Virus record (IMG/VR): IMGVR_UViG_3300020578_000008
Location: 92,599 to 156,598 of that record
Reading direction: 5' to 3' (one strand)
Length of the DNA: 64,000 bases
Source of the DNA: a virus
The notes below the pieces were generated by a model. The model saw nothing but the letters and a program-made list of their open reading frames with translations, made no database searches and was not told the DNA's origin. Numbering within the stretch: position 1 is the stretch's first letter; every line of letters begins with the position of its first letter. The position numbers and the translations under genes are program-made. Below, one piece after another: positions 9,001 to 56,958 of the stretch.

Positions 9001-12000
9001 TCAAGTATCTATCTCGGAAATTGAATTCTTACGTATTCGTGGTGGTGATCTTGTTGTTACTGGATTTGATGCTTCGCCAACATTAGGTGGTGCTGCTGCT
9101 ACAAACCAAAAACTACCAACACAGAAAGCTGTTAGAGACTTTGTAACTAATAACCTAGGTCCATATTTTGGTAAACCATATTCAACAAATCCAGTTCCAA
9201 ATGCTCTTGTAGAACTAGGAAATGATGGTAAGATTAATCTAGATCAAATTCCACCTATCAGACCATTTAAAGTTTATACAGTAGAAAACACTTCCCAAAG
9301 ACTTGCTTTAGAAGGATTAAATTCTGGTGATATTGCTGTACAAGTTACAAGATTGAATGATACTATCAGTGCTTCTGATGTTGATGTAGCAAATAATAAA
9401 ATCTTTACTCCTAAAACTGGATTCTCTAGCGGTCAAATTCTTTCAATTGTATCAAGTCCAGTTAACCCAATTCAAACAACTGATGGTCCTATAGTTGCTG
9501 GAGAGTCTTATTATCTTATTGTTCTTCCAAATAATTTTGTTCAGTTAGCAGCATCTCCAGAAAATGTTATTGACGAAATTCCTATAACAATTACTGACGC
9601 TGGATCTGGCAATACAGAAGTTCAAATCGCTACTGGTACAGTTTCATATATTTTAAATAATGATGTAGATACTCAATTTTTAGCTTATCCTCCAAATATA
9701 TCCACAACATTTACAACTGGATCATTAGTTATTGGTTCGGCAACAGGTGCTATTGGTTCAGTAACTAGTACTTTATATGGTACTGTATTCTCAATTTCAG
9801 TTTCTGGCGGTGGTAATGTTTATTTAAATGAAACTCCATCTGTAGTTATCTCTGCTCCGAATCAAGGTGATGGTGTTCAAGCAACAGCAACTCCTGTTGT
9901 TGTTGGTAGTAGAATTTCGGCAGTTGAAATTACCAATAAAGGAAGTGGATATGATACCACACCAACTGTATCTATTTCTATAGGAGAAGTTGCTTGGTCA
10001 GCAAATCAAACATATCTTGTCGATGATTTAATTTTTGTTGGAACAAATCTTTATAAAGTAACAACAGAGGGAACTTCAGGAACATCTGCTTTCTCTGGTC
10101 AATCTGGCATTCCTCAACCAGCAGATGGTGGTACATGTTTCTATGTTTACGTCGGGGAAAGAGCTCAATTAACATCTTTTGTTGAAAGTAGAGTTTCTAT
10201 TAATATTGAAAATTCTGTTAAATTTACTGATGTTGACAATATTAATAGTCATAATGCTACTCCTGTCACAGTAAACATATCTAGAGTTGTTAATACATCA
10301 GGATCAAATGAATTTAACTGGGTTCCACTGACATCAGCTTCTATTGATGCTGCTTCTATTACTACTGGTACTATTTCTACTTCTAGATTAGCATTACCTA
10401 ATACTGGTTCAGCAAACTCGTTTACATTCTTAAGGGGCGATCAATCATTTAAACCAGTTGTACAAGGTGTTAAATTACCAGAATCTAAATTCTTAGTAAA
10501 AACTGTTCTATTCTCACCTGGAAGTGGTGATCCTTTAATCCCGCCAGTAAACTACATCACTATTCCATTAACGAGTTTAATACAAACTGGACAGAGAGTT
10601 ATTGGTAATGGTGTGTCAGCAGATACAATTGTTCTTGAAATATTAACTGTTGGTGGTAATACTAGAGTTGTATTAAGTTCTACGCTAATTAATGATGTCC
10701 CTGTTGGTACAGTATTTACCATTATAAGAACAGAAACTGCATTACAATTTGATTCTAACTTTACCAAAGGAGCATATGCTGCTGGCATCTTTATAGAAAG
10801 TCCAGGTAACTATTACACTTCAACTATTACCAATGGTAATATAGGAGAAAATACAATTAGCGTAGTTGACGTTACCAAAGCTGTTATTGGGCAAAAGGTA
10901 ACTGCTGAGGGAGTTGCTACCAATGCTATTATCACCAGCATTCAGCTTGATAGTGGAACTTCGGGAACAATTACTTTATCAGCAAATAATACTGCTAATA
11001 TAGTAAACAAAGAAGTTCAGTTTGGAGTTCCATTCTCAACTGGTACGTTCAATAACGTAGAACTATTCGGTTCAAATACAGGTTCTGGTGCTAAAGCAAC
11101 ATTTACTGTTCAAAATGGTTTAATTACTAATGCCCTTATAACTGATGGTGGTAATGGATATACAGAAGATTTTGATATCGATCCCATTCCAGGTGCTTTA
11201 GGATTAGGAACTGGCGCTAAACTTACTGTTCTTGCTTCAACTCAGCAAACATACTTCTCTAGCATCGAAATGGATGTCAAGAGAGTTACAAATCAAACAA
11301 CATCATTAGATCCTTTTGGTACAGTTGGTGTTGCTAGATTCCAGAAATCACAATATACATATGGTCCTGATGGAGCAGTTACTTTAAAAACTGGTCCAGA
11401 ATCAGGATTAGATTCTGACTTACTTGATGGTAAGCAAGGTGTATTCTATCTTGATGCTTCAAACTTAGAATCTGGCACTCTAAGACCAGATAGATTATCT
11501 GGTACATATTCAATTGATATTACTGGCAAATCTGGTACTACAACTAGAGTAGAAACTATAACAGATTCCATCAACGCTGTACCAGCTCCTTCTGCTTACG
11601 GATCAGGTTTAAGTTTGGCAGCAAGAATATCTTCTAATTTTAGATCTTCTCTAGTTGATAGAACCTTAGAAGATGAAGGAGAGCGTGTAACATTACTGAC
11701 TATTAGACCATCTGGTATTGGTACAGATGCTAGTAATGGTGGTTTAAAACAGTTAGCATTTACTGATGGTACTCTTAACGTTGGTACAGGTGGTGGTGGT
11801 GCTAGTTCTTCTACAACTCTTGATGATGTTGTTCCAAATATGTACATTCGTGGTACAGGAAACATTATCCCAACTGATCCAACAAACGCTTTCTCACCTT
11901 GGTATAAGGTATGGACTTCTGGTAATGATGGATTTGGATCTGGATTAGATGCTGATAAACTACAAGCAAAAGATGCCAAGTTCTATACAAATGCTCTAAA

Positions 12001-15000
12001 CCTTGATGGTGGCAGCATCAATGATTCCAGATTACAACCAATAATGTCTTCTAAGAAATTCTTAGAATCATTAACTACTGTTAGATATATTGACAAAGCA
12101 CACTATGAAATTTATTTCTCTGGAAGATTAAATAACGGAGATCTTAACTTCGTAATTGGCACCACTTACTCATTATACAATGATATTCTCCAAGTAGTTG
12201 GTCAAGCAACATTAAAGCTGATAGAGCAAAAATTCCCTGTAGAAGAGGTTAAAACAGAACTTAATTACGTAATTCTTACAATTCAATTAGATAGTGGTTC
12301 TATTGGTTCTGCTACAAAAATTGGATTTACTGGTTTTGAACAAACATGGAATTCACTAAGACTTTCGCCATTTGCCACCTATACTTCTTCTACATTACAA
12401 GATGATGGTACTGGAGCTAGATTAATCTTAGGAAGAAATGATGGTAACAATGTTGCCAACAACACTCCTTCTAGTGGTGCTATCATTGATTTCCATTCAA
12501 GCGGAGCATTCAATGAATATGATGTAAGATTCCAAGTCACTGGGGGTACTACTAATAGTGGTAATGGTGCTTTAAATATTACTGGTAATGGATTTACTTA
12601 TAACAGCAATACTGTCTGGCACTCTGGAAATGACACTGATATTTCAGGTCTGAATGCCAACTTCTTACAAGGTATTACAAAATCTCAGGTAATGAGATCT
12701 GATGAGAATACAGCAACGGCTGGATCATTAACCGTAACTGGAGTTACAACATTATCAAGTTTCGTAACTATTAATGACGCTGCTCAATTAGCAGATAACA
12801 CAATTATTGATCCTGATATTTATTCTAACAAAGTTATTGCTGGTAATTTAGCAGATGGTGGAGGATTCTCTGTTATTGGTATTGGCGGTAATGCTGGAGT
12901 AGGTAAATCTTGGGCAATAGGTCATAATGGAACTTCATTGTACTTTGGTATTGGCGATGGAAGTGCTGCTGATACATTAACAACATGGGCACAAGTAGAT
13001 GCCGACAGAACAATTAGATTCTTTGCTAAAAATAATAGCTCAATATTCTTCAGTTCTGGTACTAATGATTATAGAATTTGGAATGAAAATAATGATGGTT
13101 CTGGTTCTGGTTTAGATGCCGATCTCTTAGATGATAGAGATTGGAACTCTAGAGATAAATCAATTCTCAGAACTTCTGGATCTCATATTGCTGGTGGTTT
13201 ATACATTAATGATGGCACTAAATATCAAACTTCAAACTTTGGTTTCTTAATTAGGCATTCTGATGCCAATGGTGTAAGTGCTGGTGCTGGTGGTAGACTA
13301 GATTTTGTATTTGGAGACGATGCTTCTAAAGCAGCAGATCAAACTGTATCAACTCTTCGTACATTCTCATTTGATAAATCTGGTCAATTAATTCTTCCAG
13401 CGCCTACAGGTACTTCTCCATTATCTGTAACTTCTACGACTAAAGTAACAAATTTAAATGTTGATTTACTAGATGATCAGGATGGTAGTTATTATACAAA
13501 CGTCAACAATGCTAATGCTGGTACTTTAGCTGCTGTTAGAGGTGGTACAGGAATCAATGCTTATGCTATTGGTGATATGTTGTATGCTTCAGCAACAACC
13601 CCAACACTAGCAAAATTAAATATTGGTACTACCAACCAAATTCTTACAGTAAATTCTGACGCCACTGCTCCTAAATGGACCTCACCATCAGCGATTAATA
13701 TTGGATCAGCAACTAAAATTGCTGTTACATCAGATGCTGCTACATCAACTAATTTGGTGGTTGGATTCTTCTCATCTACAGAAACCCCAGCAGATATTAA
13801 ATATAGCTCAGACTCTTCACTTGGATTATTCTTTAATCCATCTGTAGGAAGATTAACAGCTAAAACATTCAATGGAGCTTTAAGTGGAAATGCTACAAGT
13901 GCTACTAACGTTTCTGCTGGTGGTGCTGCTGGATCTCTACTTTATCAATCAGGAACAAATACAACAACAGTTTTAGGAATTGGTACTTCTGGTCAGGTAT
14001 TGGTAGTAGGTGGGTCTTCGGCTCCTATTTGGACAGCACAAATTAACATTACTGCTGGTAATATTAATGGTGGAGTTCGAGGGCAAGTATTATATCAATC
14101 TGGCGTTGGAGCAACAGCAAAATTACCTGTAGGTGCTGCTGGATCTTTACTCCAGACTAATGGAACTAATCAAAATCCTTCATGGGTGGCACAAAATACA
14201 ATCACTGCTGGCAACATACATGCTGGTGTTGCTGGCGATCTCTTATATCAATCTGCTGCCTCAACAACTTCTAAGTTAACCATTGGATCTGCTGGTCAGG
14301 TATTGGTAGTAAATACCAATGCTACGGCTCCTTCTTGGACAGCACAAAGCAATATTACTGCTGGTAATATTGCTAGCGTTGATGGTGATACTGGATCTTT
14401 ACTATATCAATCTGCCGTAAATGTTACGTCCAAGTTCTCACAAGGAACAGCTGGTCAAGTATTAAGTTCACAAGGAACTGGAGCAGCTCCTCTTTGGATC
14501 AACCAATCTTCTATTACTGCTGGTAACATACATGCTGGTGTACGTGGCGATCTCTTATATCAATCTAACGTTGGAACAACTGTTAAATTAAATATTGGAT
14601 CTGCTGGTCAGGTATTGGTAGTAAATGCTGGTGCTACGGCTCCTTCTTGGGTAGCACAAAATACAATCACTGCTGGTAATGTGGATGGTGGAGCTATTGG
14701 TGAAGTTCTATATCAATCTGCTGCTGGAGCAACAGCTAAATTGCCAGTATCAAATTCTGGATTTATTTTATCAACTCAAGGAGCAAATAACCCACCTGCT
14801 TGGATTAATCCAAATACAATTACTGCTGGTAATATTAGTGGTGGTGCTGCTGGAGAAATTCTATATCAATCTGGTACTGGAGCAACAGCAAAACTTCCTG
14901 TGGCAGCAGCATCTGCTGGACAAGTTCTTGCTCTAAGTTCCTCCAAATTACCAGTTTATATTAATCAATCTTCAATTGTTGCTGGCAACATTACCAGCAT

Positions 15001-15988
15001 CGCCGCCGATACCAATAAAATTTTGTATCAGTCTGCCGTTAATACTACATCTAAATTACCAACAGGCGAGGCTGGTCAAATATTAAGGTCTGGTGGAAGC
15101 CTTGCTGTTCCTGGTTGGGTTGCCCAATCAACTCTTACTGTTGGAGCTGCTGCTAACGTATCAGGTGGTGGTGCTGGACAAATACATTACCAAAGCGGTC
15201 CTGGAGCAACGGCATTCTTAGCGGCAGGACAGAATACACAGGTTCTGATTGGTGGAGCAGCGGCGCCTGCTTGGTCTAATATTTCTGGTCTTTCTGTTGC
15301 CTCTGCTGCAAATATTACTGCTGGTGTTGCTGGCGATCTCTTATATCAATCTGCTGCCTCAACAACTGTTAAATTAAACATTGGATCTGCTGGTCAGGTA
15401 TTAGTTGTTAACACTGGCGCTAGTGCCCCAACGTGGGTTAACCCATCAACATTAACCGTAGGTAATGCTACCACAGCAGTCAATACCACTGCTGGTATGC
15501 CTAATAATACTGACACTGTTTTAAATGCTCGTATTATTAGAAACAACAATAGCACCAGCGCCAATGACGGTATGTATATTGGTTATGGTAATACTAATAG
15601 TGGTCTTACTAGATTGTATGGCGGTGGTTCTACTTCAAATAGGTTAGAAATCAATTCCGCAGGTAATGTTACTGTAACTGGTACAGTAACAGCAAGTTCT
15701 GATATCAGACTTAAGAAAAATATCAAAACAATTGAAAATGCTTTAGATAAAGTTCTAAATCTTAGAGGTGTAGAATTTGATCGAATTGATATTGATACTC
15801 ACCAGATTGGTTTAATTGCTCAAGAGGTTGAGGAAGTTATTCCAGAAGTTATATTTGAAAATGAAGATGGCATGAAGACTGTTGCTTATGCTAATATGGT
15901 ATCAGTCCTCATTGAGGCAATCAAAGAACAACAAATTCAAATAAATATGCTACAAGAGGAAATTAAATCTCTCAAAGACAAACCATAA
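2..15988 (+). CDS. Giant tail fibre protein with C-terminal S74 chaperone (5' end probably outside window)
   Basis: Structural adhesin, more than 5300 residues. The first ATG in the window is at base 35, but the frame stays open to base 2 and no ribosome-binding site sits at usable spacing before that ATG, so the gene probably starts upstream. Numbering here is from the ATG. The N-terminal part (about 330-2500) is built of modules marked by C-x-R-D. A beta-helix-like stretch follows near 2650-2850. Next come phage-fibre motifs such as GLDADLLDD and SGNDGFGSGLDADKL. About ten 50-residue repeats lie near 4620-5145. The last 96 residues are a peptidase S74 intramolecular chaperone. SDIRLKKNI contains the expected Ser5222 and Lys5227 pair, five residues apart as in endosialidase, so the tail should cleave itself off after trimerising. 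It ends in a coiled coil. Such giant fibres are typical of cyanomyoviruses. Receptor unknown. Confidence 0.88.
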   Translation, partial: SFRRRFPIGHKMFGQKSAILNIKEHTGDVAKLNALITAGTNIVGQQTSCSATLTSIISATPAPDYVWEAEQEYLVGDIVRVSNSIYKVTTSGSSGTIAYSGVLATPKNAVNGSSAYIYLGDRREASLNITVNDNSPSQSFADDEVISYVINSVTYLANVALFKSTRAEGEVVKYGETELREYIVEEIDASKWSTHPTPGDNGQLTPGSGGIIFKFAGLHEFKEFDIVFISKPNNAPVALNSFFGFQRVDQVLYDADGFSRRIVVKKQIQPSYTSVYLPPIGQCKAKAKTKYVEISLLNSPYGFTDSTFTSYRFIDAVTFIRNNRDFIAEEITGAISSRYPDFVYPGTNASRLRFKDARNLIYKNLDFIADEAIGWLWNESNFATWGAANLALKSKCRRDVKIFLRGLANDLYDGSNKSTIVVTRSYFNAITGVPIPNGLVGVEPQSIAVFTKAAEYAKLAVNNSLPITPTYSPLKAYRDLSITHDPTTYLTVGENNCANVKTAITTLTTILTSAISAGNLTGLPPVSSDDGASDGENLCKRDLKHILNAVIADLPYGGNATSIEAAKSYRNNSTQSVEYIDNQHRQSRFAFQLARDYAILAMRNWQTKISLKFKKDSDIVEVVSAAGTIGLVPKMRLYSYNNLEQQVETDYFIKEVVSPTQIRIWKFNTGLSGADHTFADGEITGFKTRNINLKLSEGETSFTPIWTDDLVPRTTNYPEFPECTNVAVTLTNLFTLIDDIVVNNTDDRYFDATNQIEFNKDFIAEEVNGWLKETYDGFAYPLPTFTKTVIDTSNADAYPSFIQITNTAKVKVGQLVTSGDAIQDNTYITSIDVENKILYLSKSLESEMDSVTIHPDVYLDESMRYKDASNLILKNKNEITDKALAQIAVEFPDFVFPGNSVTDEFSRFADGYRLITQNIKEIVDRSSAEVAVQHPDFYFPADAQTTKRSRFKDAYRLIQLNKQEIIDTAYATMEANGLPSPAPTDLESKCKRDIGLLVDYVSLDVFVGGNTYARKFVLTYFNGNTFIPDGLEGEVPQSITAFNAARDLMKQAIANQLTVKDLTITPGAATYGGGGGNIPNDNVGACADVQSAITSLVAVVTDVLTSLNINNLVKENDGNNNRYEDSADLIYNNKQEIIDRAAAQIAVEYPDFYYPGDPQTTSSSRFRDSYRLIQQNRQQIIDRAAAEIAIQFPDFYYPGDAQTTPTSRFKDAYRLIQLNRDEIIANAYAAILIFNPEFVNPNPQKCQRDIGIFVDALSLDISNGGGNTYTRKFVLQYFNNGIPISNGLLGEEAESNVAFNKARDEMNRAVANQLTVKDLTITADPTPGSGTVSNTNPDSCANVQAAITSLALIVTDRITAGNIIGLPSETTGTIPAGEAKCKRDLAYFVDSVSLDLTLKSNKYSRKFVLQYFNNGIPISNGLVDETAQSVVAFNMARDMMKNAITNQLFAKDLTITPDPAPGSGAVSNTNPNSCTNVRSTIDTLSSLITARITAGNLTGLPAEVEPVTLKGETKCKRDIGQFVIAIEADLRQLTDFNTRTFLSRYFTPDGSSWISNGLQNEEAQSVVAFNKARDVINQAITNQLYYKDLTITADPVTGSNANPSSCADVQTAITTLTTLVTTRITAGNLGTTKSSFLAAATYDVLVGEIKCKRDVKKFVEAVSLDVFTKGNKYSREFVNQYFTNVSSPLSNGLVNEETQSITAFNMARDMMRKAVTNQLTIKDLTITAGPAQYNGSGGNIPNLPSGTAAACVDVQAGIASLSKIITDVITAGSLTGLDAFPETQGVFGIGETKCRRDIGIIVDAVAKDVADGSNWRSVTAARSYFQEGQPISNGLVDEEAASIFAFNKARDLMILAIRNQLNYRDLSITADPERLTNFDKFVCSDVASGITTLVSIITTTINDGDLDSLSGITVNRGTYSFNEIKCKRDIKLLIDAVINDITLNDSNANSINYANLYKEQNGNIKLIDNQLIQSVAAFRKARDLCILAMRNWIEFPGKQYYQKEYTDLDYVRDEFLIIDTETPYCQNVATAITNRFDLIINILTGDAENSNLDTANQIAINENFIINEALASGEVSFPGVSIPNITKCKRDLRIILRSVQRDIILGGTVGIVRSADSYLTGATLDVGFVGDQLGKTLHIYDYAKHMAIAATRNWNFEIRDCTTVSGNNVVTVPNTNGVVLGMRVSANEFRYTDLTPDSYAYVIGINRGSNTITLGNSKSLTAAAFPANASTTTAKLFFSFSEVGAPWFDAANNITANKTFIKQEAVGYIENIYPYLTTLNPSTSLANLVSQYDNATCQRDIGYVLDALIFDLRYGGNSETIKAAELYRNASGHLDYIGNQLVQSIETFEKVKDLAVLAMRNWKTSATTTYTKQFATADYVVNNDILPDPAGYPQCAFVEASIESLFQQFVDIITNDSGGTKIDAARLIARNFKYIAEEAVGAANEEYPLVTIPNEAKCLRDTQLIMTAWIKDLITGGNSATIQATQSYLTNTGAVTFIQDELQKSRYAYEYAKNLVKLAVTNNLPDPGEYTDEDPFTDLSILPDPLTNDNTDPTSCASVQSTIETLWSILDSTLAQSGAPLPAATYGTQYNPRKYFPANFPGIFAGDYFQGLQRASTDEFITEDTSYPECANIITTLINLFAILDAVLNGGDLPEATNDNVALVVRNRGTLYNPTIVQGSGTMIDAGNRPVIRGRMINANDIIETSPYIQNCSIISFLGGGGCEVDGSKIKQINVPRPGLKEDGSSKLAPQGKSMVANAFTIISQGGTGYLVKNDGYTQLVSVFCIFCQDGILAESGGYASVTNSASNFGTYALRATGYREEPYVFDIATISEIGVTGAGKTIFRVDGLGRRPQENFVVKIDGYENVVSDIEFFITVVSQTTVGGTGEVSSRIELNDALLIKNKESGQIVNLNTSELINKTIRLFRPSIINSSGHSFEYIGSGINYYALPENGGQKIEDNEQVSQSYGRVYASGTDEAGDFKVGRTVKMENRTGNIYFTGQVSISEIEFLRIRGGDLVVTGFDASPTLGGAAATNQKLPTQKAVRDFVTNNLGPYFGKPYSTNPVPNALVELGNDGKINLDQIPPIRPFKVYTVENTSQRLALEGLNSGDIAVQVTRLNDTISASDVDVANNKIFTPKTGFSSGQILSIVSSPVNPIQTTDGPIVAGESYYLIVLPNNFVQLAASPENVIDEIPITITDAGSGNTEVQIATGTVSYILNNDVDTQFLAYPPNISTTFTTGSLVIGSATGAIGSVTSTLYGTVFSISVSGGGNVYLNETPSVVISAPNQGDGVQATATPVVVGSRISAVEITNKGSGYDTTPTVSISIGEVAWSANQTYLVDDLIFVGTNLYKVTTEGTSGTSAFSGQSGIPQPADGGTCFYVYVGERAQLTSFVESRVSINIENSVKFTDVDNINSHNATPVTVNISRVVNTSGSNEFNWVPLTSASIDAASITTGTISTSRLALPNTGSANSFTFLRGDQSFKPVVQGVKLPESKFLVKTVLFSPGSGDPLIPPVNYITIPLTSLIQTGQRVIGNGVSADTIVLEILTVGGNTRVVLSSTLINDVPVGTVFTIIRTETALQFDSNFTKGAYAAGIFIESPGNYYTSTITNGNIGENTISVVDVTKAVIGQKVTAEGVATNAIITSIQLDSGTSGTITLSANNTANIVNKEVQFGVPFSTGTFNNVELFGSNTGSGAKATFTVQNGLITNALITDGGNGYTEDFDIDPIPGALGLGTGAKLTVLASTQQTYFSSIEMDVKRVTNQTTSLDPFGTVGVARFQKSQYTYGPDGAVTLKTGPESGLDSDLLDGKQGVFYLDASNLESGTLRPDRLSGTYSIDITGKSGTTTRVETITDSINAVPAPSAYGSGLSLAARISSNFRSSLVDRTLEDEGERVTLLTIRPSGIGTDASNGGLKQLAFTDGTLNVGTGGGGASSSTTLDDVVPNMYIRGTGNIIPTDPTNAFSPWYKVWTSGNDGFGSGLDADKLQAKDAKFYTNALNLDGGSINDSRLQPIMSSKKFLESLTTVRYIDKAHYEIYFSGRLNNGDLNFVIGTTYSLYNDILQVVGQATLKLIEQKFPVEEVKTELNYVILTIQLDSGSIGSATKIGFTGFEQTWNSLRLSPFATYTSSTLQDDGTGARLILGRNDGNNVANNTPSSGAIIDFHSSGAFNEYDVRFQVTGGTTNSGNGALNITGNGFTYNSNTVWHSGNDTDISGLNANFLQGITKSQVMRSDENTATAGSLTVTGVTTLSSFVTINDAAQLADNTIIDPDIYSNKVIAGNLADGGGFSVIGIGGNAGVGKSWAIGHNGTSLYFGIGDGSAADTLTTWAQVDADRTIRFFAKNNSSIFFSSGTNDYRIWNENNDGSGSGLDADLLDDRDWNSRDKSILRTSGSHIAGGLYINDGTKYQTSNFGFLIRHSDANGVSAGAGGRLDFVFGDDASKAADQTVSTLRTFSFDKSGQLILPAPTGTSPLSVTSTTKVTNLNVDLLDDQDGSYYTNVNNANAGTLAAVRGGTGINAYAIGDMLYASATTPTLAKLNIGTTNQILTVNSDATAPKWTSPSAINIGSATKIAVTSDAATSTNLVVGFFSSTETPADIKYSSDSSLGLFFNPSVGRLTAKTFNGALSGNATSATNVSAGGAAGSLLYQSGTNTTTVLGIGTSGQVLVVGGSSAPIWTAQINITAGNINGGVRGQVLYQSGVGATAKLPVGAAGSLLQTNGTNQNPSWVAQNTITAGNIHAGVAGDLLYQSAASTTSKLTIGSAGQVLVVNTNATAPSWTAQSNITAGNIASVDGDTGSLLYQSAVNVTSKFSQGTAGQVLSSQGTGAAPLWINQSSITAGNIHAGVRGDLLYQSNVGTTVKLNIGSAGQVLVVNAGATAPSWVAQNTITAGNVDGGAIGEVLYQSAAGATAKLPVSNSGFILSTQGANNPPAWINPNTITAGNISGGAAGEILYQSGTGATAKLPVAAASAGQVLALSSSKLPVYINQSSIVAGNITSIAADTNKILYQSAVNTTSKLPTGEAGQILRSGGSLAVPGWVAQSTLTVGAAANVSGGGAGQIHYQSGPGATAFLAAGQNTQVLIGGAAAPAWSNISGLSVASAANITAGVAGDLLYQSAASTTVKLNIGSAGQVLVVNTGASAPTWVNPSTLTVGNATTAVNTTAGMPNNTDTVLNARIIRNNNSTSANDGMYIGYGNTNSGLTRLYGGGSTSNRLEINSAGNVTVTGTVTASSDIRLKKNIKTIENALDKVLNLRGVEFDRIDIDTHQIGLIAQEVEEVIPEVIFENEDGMKTVAYANMVSVLIEAIKEQQIQINMLQEEIKSLKDKP
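2590..3715 (+). repeat. Short (about 36-codon) repeats inside the fibre
   Basis: Segments of the form R(F/Y)xD(A/S)xxLIxxNxxEI followed by a PDF(Y/V)(Y/F)PG motif occur at least six times, in two groups (about 2590-2930 and 3365-3715). Earlier diverged copies occur near 930-1130. Neighbouring copies are similar at DNA level as well as protein level, which points to fairly recent duplication. Confidence 0.75.
3812..3865 (+). repeat. 54-bp exact direct repeat within the fibre gene (second copy 4214-4267)
   Basis: The 54 bases at 3812-3865 and 4214-4267 read identically, in the same reading frame and at the same position of adjacent C-x-R-D modules. Exact identity at silent positions in an otherwise diverged array indicates recent duplication or gene conversion. 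Confidence 0.9.
13560..15480 (+). repeat. About ten 50-codon LLYQS/ITAGNI repeats in the fibre
   Basis: The unit runs G(D/E/Q)(L/I/V)LYQS, then T.KL..G.AGQVL, then P.W..Q, then ITAGNI.GG. Around ten copies lie between about 13920 and 15480, preceded by one diverged copy at about 13570. Such glycine- and alanine-rich short repeats usually form a trimeric fibrous shaft before an S74 chaperone domain. Confidence 0.85.
14221..14269 (+). repeat. 49-bp exact direct repeat (second copy 15319-15367)
   Basis: The two 49-base stretches are identical and in the same phase, within the first and last parts of the LLYQS repeat array, about 1.1 kb apart. Other copies in between differ at many silent sites, so the two were copied from each other recently. 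Confidence 0.9.
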
Positions 15989-16293: not shown

Positions 16294-16737
16294 ATGAAAT
16301 TTGAATCTATTATAGGGCAATATTTAAATAAAAAACAAGCGTTTTCTTATCCATCACAATTCGCAATGATCCGTATTGTGTATAAAGATTTGGGCGATAA
16401 TAAATTGATGTCTCAAAATTGGTATGAGTATCAATATCCTAGGGGTAGACCTTATAGACAAGAGTATCATAAGTATGAATATATTACAGAAAAAGAAGTA
16501 ATATTTCAATCATATAATATGGATTGGGAATTGAATTGTAATTATCAATTTAATTATGTGAACGGATTTTGGATTGCCATGCCTTGTGGGGAATGTATCG
16601 TAAAAGGAATTAGAATTAACAGTGAGGTTAAATTTAATGATTCTCAGTACATAGCAAAAGATACTGGTTATGATGCTGACGGTAGATTAGTTTTTGGCAA
16701 GTCTACTGGCGGACCCTTCATTTTTGATAGGGTATAA
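16294..16737 (+). CDS. Hypothetical protein, 147 aa
   Basis: I do not recognise this protein. It starts at an ATG preceded by GTGAGGTGAT. It is rich in Tyr, Phe and Asn, with two Cys at about residues 98-101 (PCGEC) and one at about 82, and has no obvious signal peptide or membrane helix. Its position just after the fibre terminator and just before the neck genes suggests a small virion or assembly protein, but that rests on location only. Confidence 0.7.
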   Translation: MKFESIIGQYLNKKQAFSYPSQFAMIRIVYKDLGDNKLMSQNWYEYQYPRGRPYRQEYHKYEYITEKEVIFQSYNMDWELNCNYQFNYVNGFWIAMPCGECIVKGIRINSEVKFNDSQYIAKDTGYDADGRLVFGKSTGGPFIFDRV

Positions 16738-16740
16738 ATA
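16733..16740 (+). promoter_or_regulatory. Late promoter, exact TATAAATA
   Basis: Exact match to the T4 late promoter core, 21 bp before the gp13 start codon and overlapping the end of the previous gene. It probably starts the gp13-gp17 transcript. Confidence 0.7.
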
Positions 16741-29169: not shown

Positions 29170-29177
29170 TATAAATA
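29170..29177 (+). promoter_or_regulatory. Late promoter, exact TATAAATA
   Basis: Exact late core 49 bp upstream of the major capsid gene, whose transcript it would start. It is followed by a strong AAGGAG site just before gp23. Confidence 0.72.
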
Positions 29178-42998: not shown

Positions 42999-43165
42999 GA
43001 GTAAAAACCACACCACAAAATGTATTGGAAGCAAACCTCGGTTTGTTTTGTGCTAAAATGAACTTGCCCGCTGCTGCAGCCCACTGTGGCATGACACACA
43101 AAGAAATGAAATTAACATTTCGTGAATTTTTGAAGTATCACCCAGCTAATTATGAAATCTCTTAA
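42995..43165 (+). CDS. Small conserved protein, 56 aa
   Basis: Starts with ATGA overlap on the gp44 stop and runs 14 bases into dam. The sequence MRVKTTPQNVLEANLGLFCA ... AAAAHCGMTHKEMKLTFREF looks like a compact helix-turn-helix-type domain (AAAHCGMTHKEMKL). I recall similar proteins beside gp44 in cyanophages. Not gp62, which is found downstream. Function unknown. Confidence 0.72.
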   Translation: MRVKTTPQNVLEANLGLFCAKMNLPAAAAHCGMTHKEMKLTFREFLKYHPANYEIS

Positions 43166-43979
43166 GACTCCTCTTCGTTATCCTGGTGGGAAATCCCGAG
43201 CAGTATCAAAACTATTTCAATATATTCCTGATCTGAAGACCTTTGATGAATACCGAGAACTATTTCTTGGTGGTGGTTCTGTAGCACTTGAAGTTGCCAA
43301 GCGATATCCTTTCTTGGATATCTGGGTGAATGATCTATACAATCCTCTGTATACCTTCTGGTGTATTCTTCGTGATGAACCAAAGGAACTGTACGAATGT
43401 ATCAAAGGATATAAAGAAGACTATGGCACTCCTGAACTTGCCAGAGAACTTTTCAATTTGATGAAGGATCATCTCAATCATCCAGAAGCAGAAGATTTCT
43501 ATCGTGCTGTAGCATTCTACATTATCAATAAGTGTAGTTTCTCTGGGTTGACTGAAAGTTCTTCTTTCTCACCACAAGCAAGTATCAATAATTTTTCTAT
43601 GAATAATATTGAAAAACTTCCTGGGTATGGTGAGATTATCAAAGACTGGAAGATTACTAACCATTCGTATGAAAAACTATTGACCGATGATATGGGTGTA
43701 TTTGTGTATCTGGATCCTCCTTATGACATTAAGGATAATCTCTATGGGCGTAAAGGATCAATGCACAAAGGATTTGATCACGATAAGTTTGCTATTGATT
43801 GTGACAGGCACCTTTGTTCTCAACTGGTCTCATACAACAATTCCAATCTCGTGAAGGAACGTTTTAAAGAGTGGACAGTTGGTGAATTCTCACACACTTA
43901 CACCATGAGGTCCACGGGGTCCTATAATACAGATCAAGCAAGTCGGCACGAACTGGTGCTGTTTAATTATGAAGTGTAA
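43152..43979 (+). CDS. dam: DNA adenine methylase (Dam, D12 class)
   Basis: 275 residues. Transfers methyl from S-adenosylmethionine to N6 of adenine, probably GATC. Motifs in order: LRYPGGKSR (8-16), FLGGGSVALEVAK (the FxGG SAM site) and catalytic DPPY (188-191). All key residues are present. It is inserted between gp44 and gp62, which are adjacent in T4. Likely protects phage DNA from restriction or marks replication. Confidence 0.93.
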   Translation: MKSLKTPLRYPGGKSRAVSKLFQYIPDLKTFDEYRELFLGGGSVALEVAKRYPFLDIWVNDLYNPLYTFWCILRDEPKELYECIKGYKEDYGTPELARELFNLMKDHLNHPEAEDFYRAVAFYIINKCSFSGLTESSSFSPQASINNFSMNNIEKLPGYGEIIKDWKITNHSYEKLLTDDMGVFVYLDPPYDIKDNLYGRKGSMHKGFDHDKFAIDCDRHLCSQLVSYNNSNLVKERFKEWTVGEFSHTYTMRSTGSYNTDQASRHELVLFNYEV

Positions 43980-44109: not shown

Positions 44110-44492
44110 AGCATGAATTAAAAGACTATCTTTATACAATTAACCAATCAAAACAAAATCTTTTAGAAGAAGATCCTGAGGCAGAAAAAGATTATCCACC
44201 TTTTATTGTCAATAAATGTTTGGCATCATTTACTGATACTATTTTGTATGCCAATGAAATGAATAAAAATTGTCATCTTCCTAAAAAATTACAATACGAT
44301 TTTTTTATAAATAGTTTGAAACCGAGGAAAAGATTTTCTCCTTGGATCAAAAAACAAACTCTTGAGCATCTTGAATTGGTGAAGGAGTATTATGGTTACA
44401 GTCATAATAAAGCTCTAGAAGCATTGAGGATTCTTAGGACCGATCAACTTGATTTTATAAAAAAATCGTTAGACAAAGGTGGAACTAAATGA
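44106..44492 (+). CDS. 62: Clamp loader small subunit gp62
   Basis: 128 residues, shorter than T4 gp62 (187). Forms the clamp loader with gp44. Signatures: LKDYLYTINQSKQNLLEED, YPPFIVNKCLASFTDTILYA, and KPRKRFSPWIKK, then YGYSHNKALEAL. Overlaps by ATGA on both sides. Confidence 0.92.
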   Translation: MKHELKDYLYTINQSKQNLLEEDPEAEKDYPPFIVNKCLASFTDTILYANEMNKNCHLPKKLQYDFFINSLKPRKRFSPWIKKQTLEHLELVKEYYGYSHNKALEALRILRTDQLDFIKKSLDKGGTK

Positions 44493-52289: not shown

Positions 52290-52299
52290 TATATTACAA

Positions 52300-52332
52300 C
52301 CCTTTCCTAAATATTTGGGAAGGGGTTTTTTG
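52300..52332 (+). terminator. Rho-independent terminator
   Basis: CCCTTTCC, loop TAAATATTT, GGGAAGGG (one U-G pair), then G and a T run. Confidence 0.88.
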
Positions 52333-52340
52333 TATCTCAT

Positions 52341-53627
52341 ATGAATTTAACTTGGGGTCAATTTGCTAAAAGAAATCGTTTTGAGAACAATGTAACTGTT
52401 CTTTATAACAGAGCAAAAAACAATGAACCTATGCACTTCATTGATAAGCAAGGAAATATCAATGGAGATGGCATGAAATTGTATGTGAAGTATTTACATC
52501 TTGCAATTCCAAATATTAAAAACGGTAGATTAGTTTCTAATAAAAGAACTATTGATAGAACTTTTAATTTGGGAAGAGGTAATGCTTCCTTTCAAAGTGC
52601 CGCTGCTTTATTAAAAGCATTGTATGAAAGTGGCATACCAAGAAGAGTTGTTATGTCTGGAGCTTATAATAATTTTCCAGTTGAAATGTCATTGAGCGAA
52701 ACAAAAACTGGAACTAAATACCCTCTTAGTTATTTTTTAAAAGATTTTGATTTTGGTGGGCAGTTAGCACCAGGACAAAATATTCAAGTCAATTGGGGGT
52801 TGTTAGGTTATTGGGTAAATGAAGTTGGGATGACATATAAACTTAATGTTCCTTCTATTAAAGAAAGGGGAGAGTTAAATTTATTGACAGATCTCAATAA
52901 AGCAGTAATGAATATTGTTGAGCATAGGGGAATGGGATTTGCTGATGGTATTACAATAACAGTTGGAGATAATAATCCAAAGACATTTCATAATATTGTT
53001 GGGTTTAATAAACAAGAGGGGCATGTAAAAGCTGATATTGTTATGGTTCAAAAAGATGGTAATACCTTAAAGGATGTAGCTTGGTTTTCTCATAAGGAAG
53101 GATATAAAGCAAATCACTTCCAGCAATGGGGTGGGGTATCACACTTTTTAAATGATAAGGATGAAACTTTAGATGTCTTTCCAGAGATTAGAAAGTTTGG
53201 AAACTACATGAAAAAAATATGTGGTAGAGGAGGACTGTATGATTTCAGTACTCCAGCTGGAAAAGGATTTACAGCAATGATGGATATACAGGATAAAGCA
53301 CTAAAGATGCAATCTGTTTACGGAAAAGATTTTACTCCTGGATCAAATTTTGGTAAGTCAAACTGTACTGGTGTACTACAGGGCGATGCTTCCATCGTCA
53401 GCAACGGGGCAGATAAGTATAAGTTACAGATGAGCGCCCATGCCCACATAAATCCTTATGAGATGACTGGTGACTATGACCCAGTTCTTATGATAATATA
53501 CAAGGGTGACCGAAATGATCTTGGCATCACTGGCGCCAGGGTGGTTGTCCAACCACGGGAAAGTCGAAACGCTAAGTTTGTTGTTACCAAAGACAGAAAC
53601 GGAAATTACCAAATGAATCCAACATGA
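52341..53627 (+). CDS. Hypothetical protein, possible PD-(D/E)XK-like nuclease
   Basis: 428 residues. I do not recognise the whole protein. GHVKADIVMVQKDG followed by VAWFSHKEGYK resembles the D...(x)xK core of PD-(D/E)XK enzymes, but with Ser where Glu or Asp is usual, so this is weak. The C-terminal part (TGVLQGDASIV, then SAHAHINPYEMTGDYDPV) is encoded by more GC-rich DNA. No ribosome-binding site is obvious. ATGA overlap with the ligase-fold gene suggests a functional pair. Confidence 0.68.
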   Translation: MNLTWGQFAKRNRFENNVTVLYNRAKNNEPMHFIDKQGNINGDGMKLYVKYLHLAIPNIKNGRLVSNKRTIDRTFNLGRGNASFQSAAALLKALYESGIPRRVVMSGAYNNFPVEMSLSETKTGTKYPLSYFLKDFDFGGQLAPGQNIQVNWGLLGYWVNEVGMTYKLNVPSIKERGELNLLTDLNKAVMNIVEHRGMGFADGITITVGDNNPKTFHNIVGFNKQEGHVKADIVMVQKDGNTLKDVAWFSHKEGYKANHFQQWGGVSHFLNDKDETLDVFPEIRKFGNYMKKICGRGGLYDFSTPAGKGFTAMMDIQDKALKMQSVYGKDFTPGSNFGKSNCTGVLQGDASIVSNGADKYKLQMSAHAHINPYEMTGDYDPVLMIIYKGDRNDLGITGARVVVQPRESRNAKFVVTKDRNGNYQMNPT

Positions 53628-54835
53628 GCAAAAATACTCACCTAGAACACTTAGAAGACAGCATTCTTTTTGATGGAGAAGAAGGAGCAAAAGATGCTTT
53701 TGCTTTTTTAGATTCTCTCACTAAAACTTTTAGTGGAACTCCTTCTAGTAACTTTATGATCACTACAAAATGGGATGGTGCTCCCGCTATCGTTTGTGGT
53801 GTTGATCCAAAGAATGGAGATTTCTTTGTTGGAACAAAATCAGTATTTAATAAAACAGAACCTAAAGTTAATTATAGTGATGCTTACATCGAAGCAAACC
53901 ATGGCAATTCTTCTGGTCTTGTGGAAAAACTTAAAGTAGCACTACAGTATTTTCCTGAACTTGGAATCAAAGGAATTATTCAAGGCGACCTTTTGTTTAC
54001 TGATGATGCCAGAGAAGAAAAGATTGACGGTGTTGATTACTTAACTTTTACCCCCAACACTATTACATACGCTATCCCTAAAGGTACTCCTGCTTACGAA
54101 AAGGCAAAGAGAGCTAAGGTTGGTGTGGTATTTCATACACGCTATGTTGGTGCTAGCATTGCTGAATCCCATGCTACCTTTGGTGTTAATGTGAATGAGT
54201 TTAAAAAGACTAGTAATGTTTTTGTTATCAGTGCTGAGGTAGATACAATGGGAAGTAATATGATTCTCAATGCTTTTGAACGTCGTAATCTCAGCAATAT
54301 GAAAAGAACTGCTATACCAGCTCTTCGTTCTGCTGGTTCTTTCTTAAATGAAATTTCCGAACAGATTAATTCAAAAGATAATTTTAGTATTGGCACTCGC
54401 CTTAAAACCTATTTCAATACCTATGTGAGAGAGGGTAAAAAAATTAATAACCTTTCTCGTTTCATTGATGACTTTAAAAAGAACTATCATGAAACCATGA
54501 TGAAGGAAGTTAACAAAGTTAAGCAGGAAAAAACTAAAGCTGTTAAACTTAAAAAACTTTACGATGGTATAGAGTATGTTGAAAAAAATGTTGCTGGATT
54601 CAAAGCAACTATTACTCTTTATGTAATTCTTCAAAATGCCAAGAACATGTTTGTAAAAAAACTTGCTTCTGCTGATAGCACTAGAACTTTTCTTCGTACT
54701 GATGATGGATTCCGTGTTACTGCTCCTGAAGGATTTGTTGCTATTAAAGATGGTAACGCTACTAAACTTGTAGATCGTCTGGAATTCAGTCAGGCAAACT
54801 TTACGTTACAAAAGAACTGGGTCAAGGGAAACTAA
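53624..54835 (+). CDS. Ligase-fold nucleotidyltransferase (DUF6267-like)
   Basis: 403 residues. TTKWDGAPAIV gives a KxDG motif I (Lys49 the likely adenylated residue). Later GIIQGDLLFTDD and KVGVVFHTRY resemble motifs III and IV of the covalent nucleotidyltransferase (DNA/RNA ligase) superfamily. The C-terminal 150 residues are a basic helical region unlike known ligases. I recall the family as DUF6267. Substrate unknown. It lies between a possible nuclease and an HxGH nucleotidyltransferase. Confidence 0.78.
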   Translation: MSKNTHLEHLEDSILFDGEEGAKDAFAFLDSLTKTFSGTPSSNFMITTKWDGAPAIVCGVDPKNGDFFVGTKSVFNKTEPKVNYSDAYIEANHGNSSGLVEKLKVALQYFPELGIKGIIQGDLLFTDDAREEKIDGVDYLTFTPNTITYAIPKGTPAYEKAKRAKVGVVFHTRYVGASIAESHATFGVNVNEFKKTSNVFVISAEVDTMGSNMILNAFERRNLSNMKRTAIPALRSAGSFLNEISEQINSKDNFSIGTRLKTYFNTYVREGKKINNLSRFIDDFKKNYHETMMKEVNKVKQEKTKAVKLKKLYDGIEYVEKNVAGFKATITLYVILQNAKNMFVKKLASADSTRTFLRTDDGFRVTAPEGFVAIKDGNATKLVDRLEFSQANFTLQKNWVKGN

Positions 54836-54847
54836 ATACAAATAAAA

Positions 54848-55402
54848 ATGTTTAAGAAAGTAGTCATCACTTTCGGTCGCTTCAATCCTCCCACCATTGG
54901 TCATGAAAAATTGATCAATGCTGTGGCGAAGACTGCTGGCACTGATGATTATAAAATTTACACAAGTCACACTAAAGATAAGAAAAAAAATCCTTTATCT
55001 GCTGATCAGAAAGTTGGATACATGAAAAAAATGTTTCCAACACATAAGGATCATATCATGTTGAATGATGAATTGAAAACCATCATTAAAGTTCTTCAAA
55101 GTTTACAAGGCGATTATGCTGATGTGGTTCTTGTAGTTGGCAGTGATCGTGTTCAGGAAATGGATTCGCTTATACAAAAATATAATGGAGTAGAGTATAC
55201 ATTTAAATCTTTAAAAGTTAAATCTGCTGGTGAGCGTGACCCTGATGCTGATGGTGCTACTGGTATGTCGGCAAGTAAAATGAGAGAAGCAGCTTCTGTT
55301 GCTAATGTGGATCAATTTCGTAAAGGAATACCAAACACATTAAATGATAGTGACATGATGAAATTAATGAAAGAAGTTAGAGAAGGTTTGGGAATCAAAT
55401 GA
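54848..55402 (+). CDS. HxGH nucleotidyltransferase (NMNAT/cytidylyltransferase-like)
   Basis: 184 residues. FGRFNPPTIGHEKLI carries the TxGH/HxGH signature (Thr16 to His19), and MSASKMREAA resembles the second ATP-binding motif (ISSTxxR). VVLVVGSDRVQEMDSL is the central strand. Candidate reactions are NMN adenylylation or cytidylyl transfer. Similar genes occur in marine T4-like phages. A weak late-like ACTAAATA (54831-54838) precedes it. Confidence 0.85.
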   Translation: MFKKVVITFGRFNPPTIGHEKLINAVAKTAGTDDYKIYTSHTKDKKKNPLSADQKVGYMKKMFPTHKDHIMLNDELKTIIKVLQSLQGDYADVVLVVGSDRVQEMDSLIQKYNGVEYTFKSLKVKSAGERDPDADGATGMSASKMREAASVANVDQFRKGIPNTLNDSDMMKLMKEVREGLGIK

Positions 55403-55689
55403 AAGATTTTAGGAAATTAAGAGAAGAAGCATTACGTCAGCAATATCGTGCTAAGGATGTTTTTGTTGAAGGTGATTATATTATGTCATCTGTTACAGGA
55501 GAAAAAGGTCGTATTCATAGATCTGGAACTAACTATGTGATTGCCATCACTGAAGATGGTAAGATGTTTCGTGCTTGGGTAAAAGATATTAGAGAACTCA
55601 ATTTAACAGAAAGCATAAATAAAGAAAAAGAAAGTATTATTTTCAATAATGGAAAGACAAAAAACGACAACCCAAGTGAAGCATCTTGA
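55399..55689 (+). CDS. Small SH3/KOW-like protein, 96 aa
   Basis: DVFVEGDYIMSSVTGEKGRI, then GTNYVIAITEDGKMFRAWV: a strand pattern like a small beta barrel, followed by a polar tail. Overlaps its upstream neighbour by ATGA, and the next gene starts 41 bp before its end. Function unknown. Confidence 0.68.
   Translation: MKDFRKLREEALRQQYRAKDVFVEGDYIMSSVTGEKGRIHRSGTNYVIAITEDGKMFRAWVKDIRELNLTESINKEKESIIFNNGKTKNDNPSEAS
55614..55621 (+). promoter_or_regulatory. Late-promoter-like motif CATAAATA
   Basis: Inside the 3' part of the previous gene, 27 bp before the ATG at 55649. Confidence 0.45.
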
Positions 55690-56572
55690 TGCTTTCTCAC
55701 AAGCATTGATTCAATCAACTGCTTCTTATCTTGGTGAGGAAGGCATTCCTACTCTTGAGAAACCAGCTACGGAAGAATCTACTGAAAAAAAAGATCCAAA
55801 AGCAAATGCTCATGCTGCCGATCCTGCTGTAGTTCTCAGTAATAATTTGAGAACTGGTACTGGTATTAAGCAATCACACGGCGCTACAATTAAGTACACT
55901 AACGTAGTTGCTAAAGAAGAAGTACATAAAGAAAAAGAAGAAAAATGTGAGAAAAAGAACAAAGAGGAAAAAATGAAAGAATCATTTAATCTTTATGTTG
56001 AAGGTGTTCATTATGTTTTTGAAAAAGCAAAAGGTCTTGATGGTAAAGCTTGCTGGAAAGGATATAAGTTAGCAGGCACCAAACAAAAAGGCGGCAAGAC
56101 AGTTGATAACTGTGTAAAAGCTGGTTACGAACCATTTGGAGAACTTATCCTTGATGAAAAGACATCTTCAAGTGATACATATGGACATATGGTAAATTAC
56201 ATTGAAGAGAAGAATGGTTTGTATGCCAACATCCATGCCAAGCGTAAGCGTGGAGGAGCACCTGCCAAACCAGGGCACGAAGATTATCCAGCAAAGGATG
56301 CTTTTAAAAAAGCAGCAAAAACTGCCAAGAAAGAAGAGTATGATGTAGATACCGCTAATCAACTGTGGTCTGAAGTTGCTGAGAAACTTGAGCAACTTGG
56401 AGAAATGGATGGATCTAAGTTTAAAGTTATTGGTGAAAAGAAATTAGATCCAGTCGGTAAAGAAGATGGAGACATCGACAACGATGGTGATAAGGATAAG
56501 TCAGATAGTTATCTCCATGCCCGTCGTAAAAAAATAACTAACATTATTGCCAAGTCAAAAGGAAAAAAGTGA
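55649..56572 (+). CDS. Virion-associated-type protein with CWKGY, DUF5872-like and EF-hand-like motifs
   Basis: 307 residues. Middle part CWKGYKLAGTKQKGGKTVDN followed by CV is a motif common in T4-like phage structural proteins. NIHAKRKRGGAPAKPGHEDY resembles DUF5872. The C-terminus has DIDNDGDKDKSDSYL, a dockerin or EF-hand-like calcium loop. Between these are low-complexity Lys/Glu stretches. A late motif precedes it, suggesting a late virion role. Exact function unknown. Confidence 0.72.
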   Translation: MERQKTTTQVKHLDAFSQALIQSTASYLGEEGIPTLEKPATEESTEKKDPKANAHAADPAVVLSNNLRTGTGIKQSHGATIKYTNVVAKEEVHKEKEEKCEKKNKEEKMKESFNLYVEGVHYVFEKAKGLDGKACWKGYKLAGTKQKGGKTVDNCVKAGYEPFGELILDEKTSSSDTYGHMVNYIEEKNGLYANIHAKRKRGGAPAKPGHEDYPAKDAFKKAAKTAKKEEYDVDTANQLWSEVAEKLEQLGEMDGSKFKVIGEKKLDPVGKEDGDIDNDGDKDKSDSYLHARRKKITNIIAKSKGKK

Positions 56573-56919: not shown

Positions 56920-56925
56920 TATTTA

Positions 56926-56951
56926 AGAGACCTTTAAGGTCTCTTTTTTTT
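56926..56951 (+). terminator. Rho-independent terminator
   Basis: AGAGACC, loop TTTAA, GGTCTCT, T run. It is followed at once by a late promoter motif. Confidence 0.92.
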
Positions 56952-56958
56952 ATAAATA
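56951..56958 (+). promoter_or_regulatory. Late promoter, exact TATAAATA
   Basis: Begins in the last T of the terminator and lies 35 bp before the Ig-like virion protein. Confidence 0.68.

Follow-up and report, generated by a model that had tools for sequence, protein, structure and literature searches.

In a 64,000-nucleotide stretch of the virus record IMGVR_UViG_3300020578_000008 (IMG/VR positions 92,599 to 156,598; here called the window), we found three coupled genes that encode a probable CviJI-like nuclease (gene 1), a DUF6267 protein (gene 2), and a nucleotidyltransferase (gene 3). We tentatively propose that this trio is a DNA cutting and end-sealing module that replaces the missing denA/denB and gp30 of T4 in T4-like phages of aquatic bacteria. 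We regard the identities of the parts as fairly secure, and we infer their catalytic activities, substrates, and biological role. What this analysis contributes directly is the nuclease family, an invariant Lys49 (K49) and motif order in gene 2, synteny, and propeptides on homologs; that the nucleotidyltransferase occurs in virions comes from published papers.

In the proposed mechanism, gene 1 would encode a CviJI-type endonuclease that most likely acts against host (or rival) DNA. The gene 2 protein would load a nucleotide, probably adenosine monophosphate, on Lys49 and then use it to join or mend nucleic acids at their ends or at nicks, which would make it a candidate for the DNA ligase missing from cyanophages. 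Gene 3 would encode an adenylyltransferase similar to nicotinamide mononucleotide (NMN) adenylyltransferase (NMNAT); it could turn NMN back into NAD+, either as a supply for an NAD-using gene 2 protein or to restore host NAD. In many relatives, enzymes with a T4-type propeptide would enter with the genome, and the phage of the window would make its own in the cell. According to a review, denA, ndd, denB, and DNA ligase are all missing from cyanomyoviruses, which may degrade host DNA by an undescribed route (PMC2984593). In chloroviruses, restriction enzymes carried in the virion presumably destroy the host DNA within minutes (PMC7019647). T4-like cyanophages and pelagiphages rank among the most common marine viruses, and the module provides specific candidates for their lost host DNA degradation and ligase jobs. 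In the literature that we searched, we did not find the hypervariable slot, the CviJI-like identity of gene 1, the motif reading of DUF6267, or the capsid-targeting sequences (CTSs) of the relatives described, and we consider them new.

The record behind the window is a 156.6-kb viral record whose head, replication, and nucleotide genes are T4-like, and judged by these genes its nearest relatives are T4-like cyanophages. All three open reading frames (ORFs) are on the plus strand (Table 1). Genes 1 and 2 overlap by 4 bp (ATGA), and genes 2 and 3 are separated by 12 bp, exactly as a preliminary description of the sequence had it. That description treated the trio as a unit. We found that the three genes are indeed coupled but that they open a longer, five-gene transcription unit (52341 to 56572) with two further ORFs. 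A terminator scan placed intrinsic terminators on both sides of this operon, at 52298 to 52327 and 56925 to 56945. The same gene order is seen again in dozens of unrelated contigs; thus, the arrangement is not due to chance.

We compared the gene 1 protein with PADLOC models and found that it matches REase_II (E value, 5e-5), as do 19 of 23 homologs (best, 2e-14); PADLOC nicking-enzyme models match 7 and 3 of the homologs. The protein has no match in Pfam or NCBIfam. We searched with an AlphaFold (AF2) model (predicted local distance difference test [pLDDT] score, 86) against the viral library BFVD using Foldseek and found R.CviJI (E value, 5.8e-13) and Nt.CviQII (E value, 9e-9), both of which are chlorovirus enzymes. 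A fold search of the PDB with the same model gave nothing significant, and the viral library alone resolved the fold. PDB sequence searches with all three trio proteins returned no usable relative. The putative catalytic core has the form D-Xn-SxK, with Ser standing where the ExK of PD-(D/E)XK would have E/D. Taken together, these data make it quite likely that gene 1 encodes a nuclease, as the preliminary description had supposed; the fold search suggested there, of the 428-aa protein, concerns this nuclease, and the KxDG protein has 403 aa. Gene 1 is like R.CviJI and Nt.CviPII-CviQII by fold, and its family matches both type II restriction and nicking models. In contrast to the chlorovirus systems, no methyltransferase adjoins gene 1, whose partners are DUF6267 and the nucleotidyltransferase, and unrelated families replace one another in the nuclease slot. 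We also observed a D12-class N6-adenine DNA methyltransferase (PF02086; E value, 7e-29) at 43152 to 43979, 8 kb from the operon. It is possible that this enzyme shields the phage DNA from the phage's own nuclease, although it is not adjacent.

In 98 of 123 loci, the gene directly 5' of DUF6267 is an ORF of 200 aa or more. The slot proteins belong to many families, and cross-family profile comparison showed no mutual homology. We found that each of the 6 slot families with at least 3 distinct members keeps the D-Xn-SxK motif, as do 4 of the 33 other families encoded at these loci (Fisher P = 6e-5). A quickly built FastTree phylogeny of DUF6267 (17 slot families, 76 loci) requires at least 27 changes in the state of the slot. 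Many families, a recurrent motif, and frequent changes of state indicate that the slot is hypervariable and nuclease-like and that gene 1 is one of its occupants. Two proteins, S-MbCM7_152 and phiM12_463, are unrelated and were left out of the homolog alignment. Among the slot families, PADLOC matched the CviJI-like family alone; the other occupants appear nuclease-like by the motif, with support past the motif limited to the CviJI-like family. In S-SCSM1, a small protein (L173:778-1329) with DFIF...VELK, a canonical D..ExK, is encoded immediately 5' of a DUF6267 protein of minimal size (300 aa) and is possibly a further nuclease partner.

This turnover, together with the lack of detectable similarity between slot families, would suit a competition cassette. 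According to this model, the hypervariable nuclease is exchanged by recombination and acts against plasmids or coinfecting phages, and DUF6267 and gene 3 only mark the slot in the replication cluster. Against this, every multimember slot family keeps D-Xn-SxK, the overlap of genes 1 and 2 suggests functional pairing, and chlorovirus restriction enzymes are not behind mutual exclusion (PMC7019647). We consider a competition cassette doubtful.

The gene 2 protein matches the Pfam DUF6267 model over its full length (E value, 2e-124; 416 bits against a cutoff of 27). We aligned 67 DUF6267 homologs and found K49-x-D-G, K72, Q120-G-D122, H171-T172-x-Y174, E369-G-x-V372, and K381-x-x-x-R385 to be invariant. 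In order and strand position, these residues correspond to motifs I, Ib, III, IIIa, IV, and V of covalent nucleotidyltransferases. Lys49, singled out in the preliminary description, is therefore conserved, and the motif order bears out the ligase-fold reading given there, with weak remote-homology scores. Of the 10 best PDB fold matches of the AF2 model (pLDDT, 87), 6 are ligases (T4 RNA ligase 2 [Rnl2], REL1, and DNA ligases), none of them significant (E values of at least 0.15 and low template modeling scores). Gene 2 shares with Rnl2 and other KxDG covalent nucleotidyltransferases the sequence of the KxDG lysine, motif III (with GD for GE), the EG.V of motif IV, and the Lys of motif V. It differs from them in having a large helical insertion before motif IV and no OB (oligonucleotide/oligosaccharide-binding) domain; the C terminus lies about 18 residues past motif V, which leaves no room for a C-terminal OB fold. 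The RNA_ligase family PF09414 does not match DUF6267. From motifs and predicted structure, DUF6267 probably belongs to the ligase/capping superfamily. We found no paper mentioning the family in the literature searched, and we propose this motif reading as the first biochemical reading of DUF6267.

A serious rival is RNA repair as counterdefense. Here, DUF6267 would seal RNA, such as tRNAs that anticodon nucleases have cleaved, partners resembling polynucleotide kinase and pol-beta nucleotidyltransferases would help in relatives, and the nuclease would be an add-on. RNA ligases also do without a C-terminal OB fold, Rnl2 is among the top fold matches of gene 2, and the pelagiphage-type module gains CTS-bearing AAA_33/zeta-like and adenylate kinases and a nucleotidyltransferase-pol-beta fusion. 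The operon of the window, in contrast, has no kinase or pol-beta partner, its upstream slot holds a DNA restriction-type nuclease, and DUF6267 lacks a profile match to Rnl2. We regard RNA repair as somewhat unlikely.

To follow the module in other phages, we used the DUF6267 sequence of the window in tblastn and found it in 371 Synechococcus and 61 "Cyanophage" phage records; the major capsid protein was found in 388 and 61, respectively. By this measure, about 96% of T4-like cyanophage records contain DUF6267. In 3 of 84 distinct DUF6267 loci, the nucleotidyltransferase was fused to DUF6267 (the fusion occurs in S-PM2-type phages); it lay no more than 60 bp away in 54, farther off but within 4 kb in 19, and was absent from the vicinity in 8. 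The co-occurrence to which the preliminary description pointed therefore holds for genes 2 and 3 in most loci (fused or within 60 bp in 57 of 84), but the genes also occur apart. P-SSM2, ACG-2014f, and a Vibrio phage have DUF6267 without the other trio genes beside it, and phiM12 and contigs L121 to L130 have a gene 1-type nuclease without DUF6267. This separate occurrence suggests a module, not an obligate complex. It would also be expected if the trio consisted of unrelated accessory genes of the replication region that are transcribed together but do not work together, for each of the three is found without the others adjacent. Such an ordinary neighborhood seems improbable, however: DUF6267 adjoins or is fused to the nucleotidyltransferase in most loci, one nuclease class returns to the same slot, and propeptides are common to otherwise unrelated module proteins.

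The gene 3 protein matches Pfam CTP_transf_like (E value, 8e-9) and PHROG 3041 (E value, 5e-68). The preliminary description was right to see a nucleotidyltransferase domain, but the motif is TxGH (T16-I-G-H19), that is, (H/T)xGH with Thr, rather than HxGH; it is conserved, as is S141..R146. The top NCBIfam models are NMN and nicotinic acid mononucleotide (NaMN) adenylyltransferases, with scores well under the curated cutoffs (TIGR00482, 27 bits against 112; TIGR01526, 23 against 341). The NMNAT-like "cytidyltransferases" of cyanophage virions (S-SZBM1, S-SCSM1, and S-CREM2) belong to the same family. The nucleotidyltransferase of pelagiphage-type contigs forms a fusion with either a pol-beta domain or a P-loop kinase. 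The nucleotidyltransferase of Stenotrophomonas phage DLP_6 (L019:8529-10697) has a C-terminal stretch containing VIDGHHRWKA, which we take to resemble ParB/sulfiredoxin-like domains.

These matches bear on a second serious rival, in which gene 3 encodes an NMNAT, gene 2 consumes or handles NAD, and the pair supplies or salvages NAD+ against NAD-depleting defenses or for host takeover. NMN/NaMN adenylyltransferases are the best NCBIfam matches of gene 3, NMNAT-like proteins have repeatedly been found in cyanophage virions and were proposed to raise NAD (PMC10665884), and phage NAD+ reconstitution pathways are known (PMC12774641). Nevertheless, the NMNAT models match far under their cutoffs, we found no Nampt or Adps-like partner in the operon, and the linked nuclease is left unexplained. 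We judge NAD salvage to be unlikely. The preliminary description had offered nucleic-acid end repair, DNA tagging, and NAD counterdefense as functions. End repair is the most economical, NAD counterdefense is possible, and tagging is unsupported; the module itself is real and conserved and its parts were guessed well. That interpretation is partly supported.

T4 directs proteins into its head by a CTS of the first ten residues, and gp21 cuts after L/I-x-E (PMC9026906). We examined the N termini of DUF6267 proteins and found that they either start directly at a conserved HLEHLED core or carry an extension of about 10 residues (MQGFQDFLVE|D, MYSFKQYLNE|A); CTS-like extensions are present in 34 of 89 distinct N termini. 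The pattern MKxFxxFLxE|A is common to DUF6267 and nucleotidyltransferase homologs (for example, MKKFSDFLSE|A in a nucleotidyltransferase), and T4 IPII/IPIII start with the same pattern (MKTYQEFIAE|A). In its strict form, it occurs in 18 of 95 DUF6267 starts, 14 of 99 nucleotidyltransferase starts, and 10 of 897 other starts and at none of 6,092 internal Met residues. Some slot nucleases also have L/IxE starts. In pelagiphage-type contigs, adenylate and zeta/AAA_33-type kinases with CTS-like starts (MKSFRDFIFE) lie between DUF6267 and the nucleotidyltransferase. The isolate HTVC008M has an L/IxE-type leader at the start of three module proteins, namely, the slot protein, DUF6267, and the kinase.

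Published virion proteomes contain the nucleotidyltransferases of S-SZBM1, S-CREM2, and S-SCSM1. We found that all three start with a propeptide (MRFRQFIIE|A, MKNFSSFLTE|A, and MKSFLQFLKE|A, respectively). Unlike these virion-detected enzymes, the gene 3 protein of the window lacks a propeptide, and a separate ORF encodes its C-terminal domain. Many relatives thus appear to package module enzymes in the virion head. As in the T4 internal head proteins (IPI-III and Alt), CTS-type N termini occur on gene 2 and gene 3 homologs, neighboring kinases, and some slot nucleases; unlike in T4, the cargo would consist of nucleic-acid and nucleotide enzymes, and the window's own proteins lack the signal. 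A T4-type CTS offers a mechanism for the unexplained NMNAT-like enzymes in cyanophage virions and points to further enzymes that are likely injected. A more novel reading is a methylase-free, restriction-like system. The hypervariable nuclease would cut unprotected DNA, the conserved DUF6267-nucleotidyltransferase pair would chemically mark, cap, or continuously reseal phage DNA, and in many relatives the whole kit would ride in the head and act before phage gene expression. We think this very improbable.

For the proposed cutting and sealing module, we compared the distribution of DUF6267 with that of ligase families. All 13 cyanophage-type records (that of the window and 12 isolates) have DUF6267 and none has PF01068 over the cutoff or PF01653, but most of the 12 isolates were picked for holding DUF6267, so the presence count is biased and the ligase contrast is suggestive only. 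T4 and phiM12 have PF01068 and lack DUF6267. This bias is one of several points that weigh against our proposal. DLP_6 and a Vibrio phage hold both DUF6267 and a DNA ligase, which weakens the idea that DUF6267 simply replaces gp30; since the two coexist, DUF6267 is not simply a ligase replacement. A phage ligase can also be replaced by the host ligase (PMC2984593). The Foldseek search of the PDB with gene 2 gave no match below an E value of 1e-3, and a profile comparison of DUF6267 with T4 Rnl2 failed (hhalign probability below 1%). No methyltransferase that could protect the phage DNA is encoded beside the nuclease. S-SZBM1 DUF6267 has no CTS and is not among the tabulated virion proteins, and we found no T4-type propeptide (10 to 19 residues with an L/I-x-E cleavage site) on the trio, in the rest of the window, or in the other 92.6 kb of the record. 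The enzymes of this phage are therefore probably made in the infected cell. We rejected packaging of the window's own proteins, as they have no CTS and the operon has no late promoter.

Table 1. Positions of the trio, its motifs, and associated features (window coordinates, except where a contig is named)
Feature	Position	Strand	Remarks
Gene 1, CviJI-like type II restriction endonuclease family (predicted), PHROG 13937, 428 aa	52341-53627	+	PADLOC, AF2, Foldseek/BFVD
Putative catalytic core of gene 1, D232 ... S250-H251-K252 (D-Xn-SxK, PD-(D/E)XK type)	53034-53096	+	Invariant in 23 homologs
Gene 2, DUF6267 (PF19782, "T4-GC 71"), 403 aa	53624-54835	+	Predicted covalent nucleotidyltransferase, ligase/capping superfamily, inserted helical domain
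Gene 2 motif I, K49-W-D-G, predicted nucleotidyl-lysine	53768-53779	+	K49, D51, G52, and P54 invariant
Gene 2 motifs IV (E369-G370-x-V372) and V (K381-x-V-x-R385)	54728-54778	+	Invariant; strands 370-375 and 378-382
Gene 3, TxGH nucleotidyltransferase, NMNAT-like ("cytidyltransferase," PHROG 3041), 184 aa	54848-55402	+	Pfam, PHROG, NCBIfam
Detached C-terminal domain of nucleotidyltransferase	55399-55689	+	Nucleotidyltransferase profile match; PHROG 395
Last gene of operon, 307 aa, PHROG 4359	55649-56572	+	C-terminal DIDNDGDKDKSDSYLHARRKK motif
Upstream intrinsic terminator	52298-52333	+	13-bp stem and T tract; RNA fold -19.4 kcal/mol, z -4.4
Downstream terminator, then late-promoter octamer TATAAATA	56925-56945, then 56951-56958	+	Opens next unit, virion proteins
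CTS-bearing kinases, pelagiphage-type contigs	L088:7480-8043, L091:7920-8600, L044:1244-1831, L054:5543-6220

The upstream terminator ends 14 bp ahead of gene 1 and sets the operon apart from a tRNA-Ser gene and the upstream replication genes. The T4-type late-promoter octamer TATAAATA is also present at 29170 to 29177, 16733 to 16740, and 44306 to 44313. Two of the octamers lie directly 5' of virion genes (gp23 and a 191-aa protein), and none lies inside the operon of the trio, which is probably not expressed late.

The 96-aa ORF that follows gene 3 overlaps it by 4 bp and in turn overlaps the 307-aa ORF. Its domain is joined to the nucleotidyltransferase in S-RIM2, ACG-2014d, and S-CAM9, and its N terminus (MKDFRKLREEA) is weakly CTS-like. 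The domain is labeled "ribonucleotide reductase alpha subunit" in PHROG 4808 and NrdB in S-CAM3, which looks like a misannotation. The C-terminal DIDNDGDKDKSDSYLHARRKK tail of the 307-aa protein also occurs in S-PM2, S-CAM3, and HTVC008M. In addition, a C-terminal motif, D.DNDGDKDKSDSYLHARRKK, which is a dockerin/EF-hand-like repeat, recurs in the 307-aa protein, at L171:10987-11553, and in several cyanophage and pelagiphage proteins of the region; it is possibly a second targeting or assembly tag. Elsewhere in the window, positions 35 to 15988 hold a single 5,317-aa ORF that is tail fiber-like and whose end looks like an intramolecular-chaperone (peptidase S74-like) domain.

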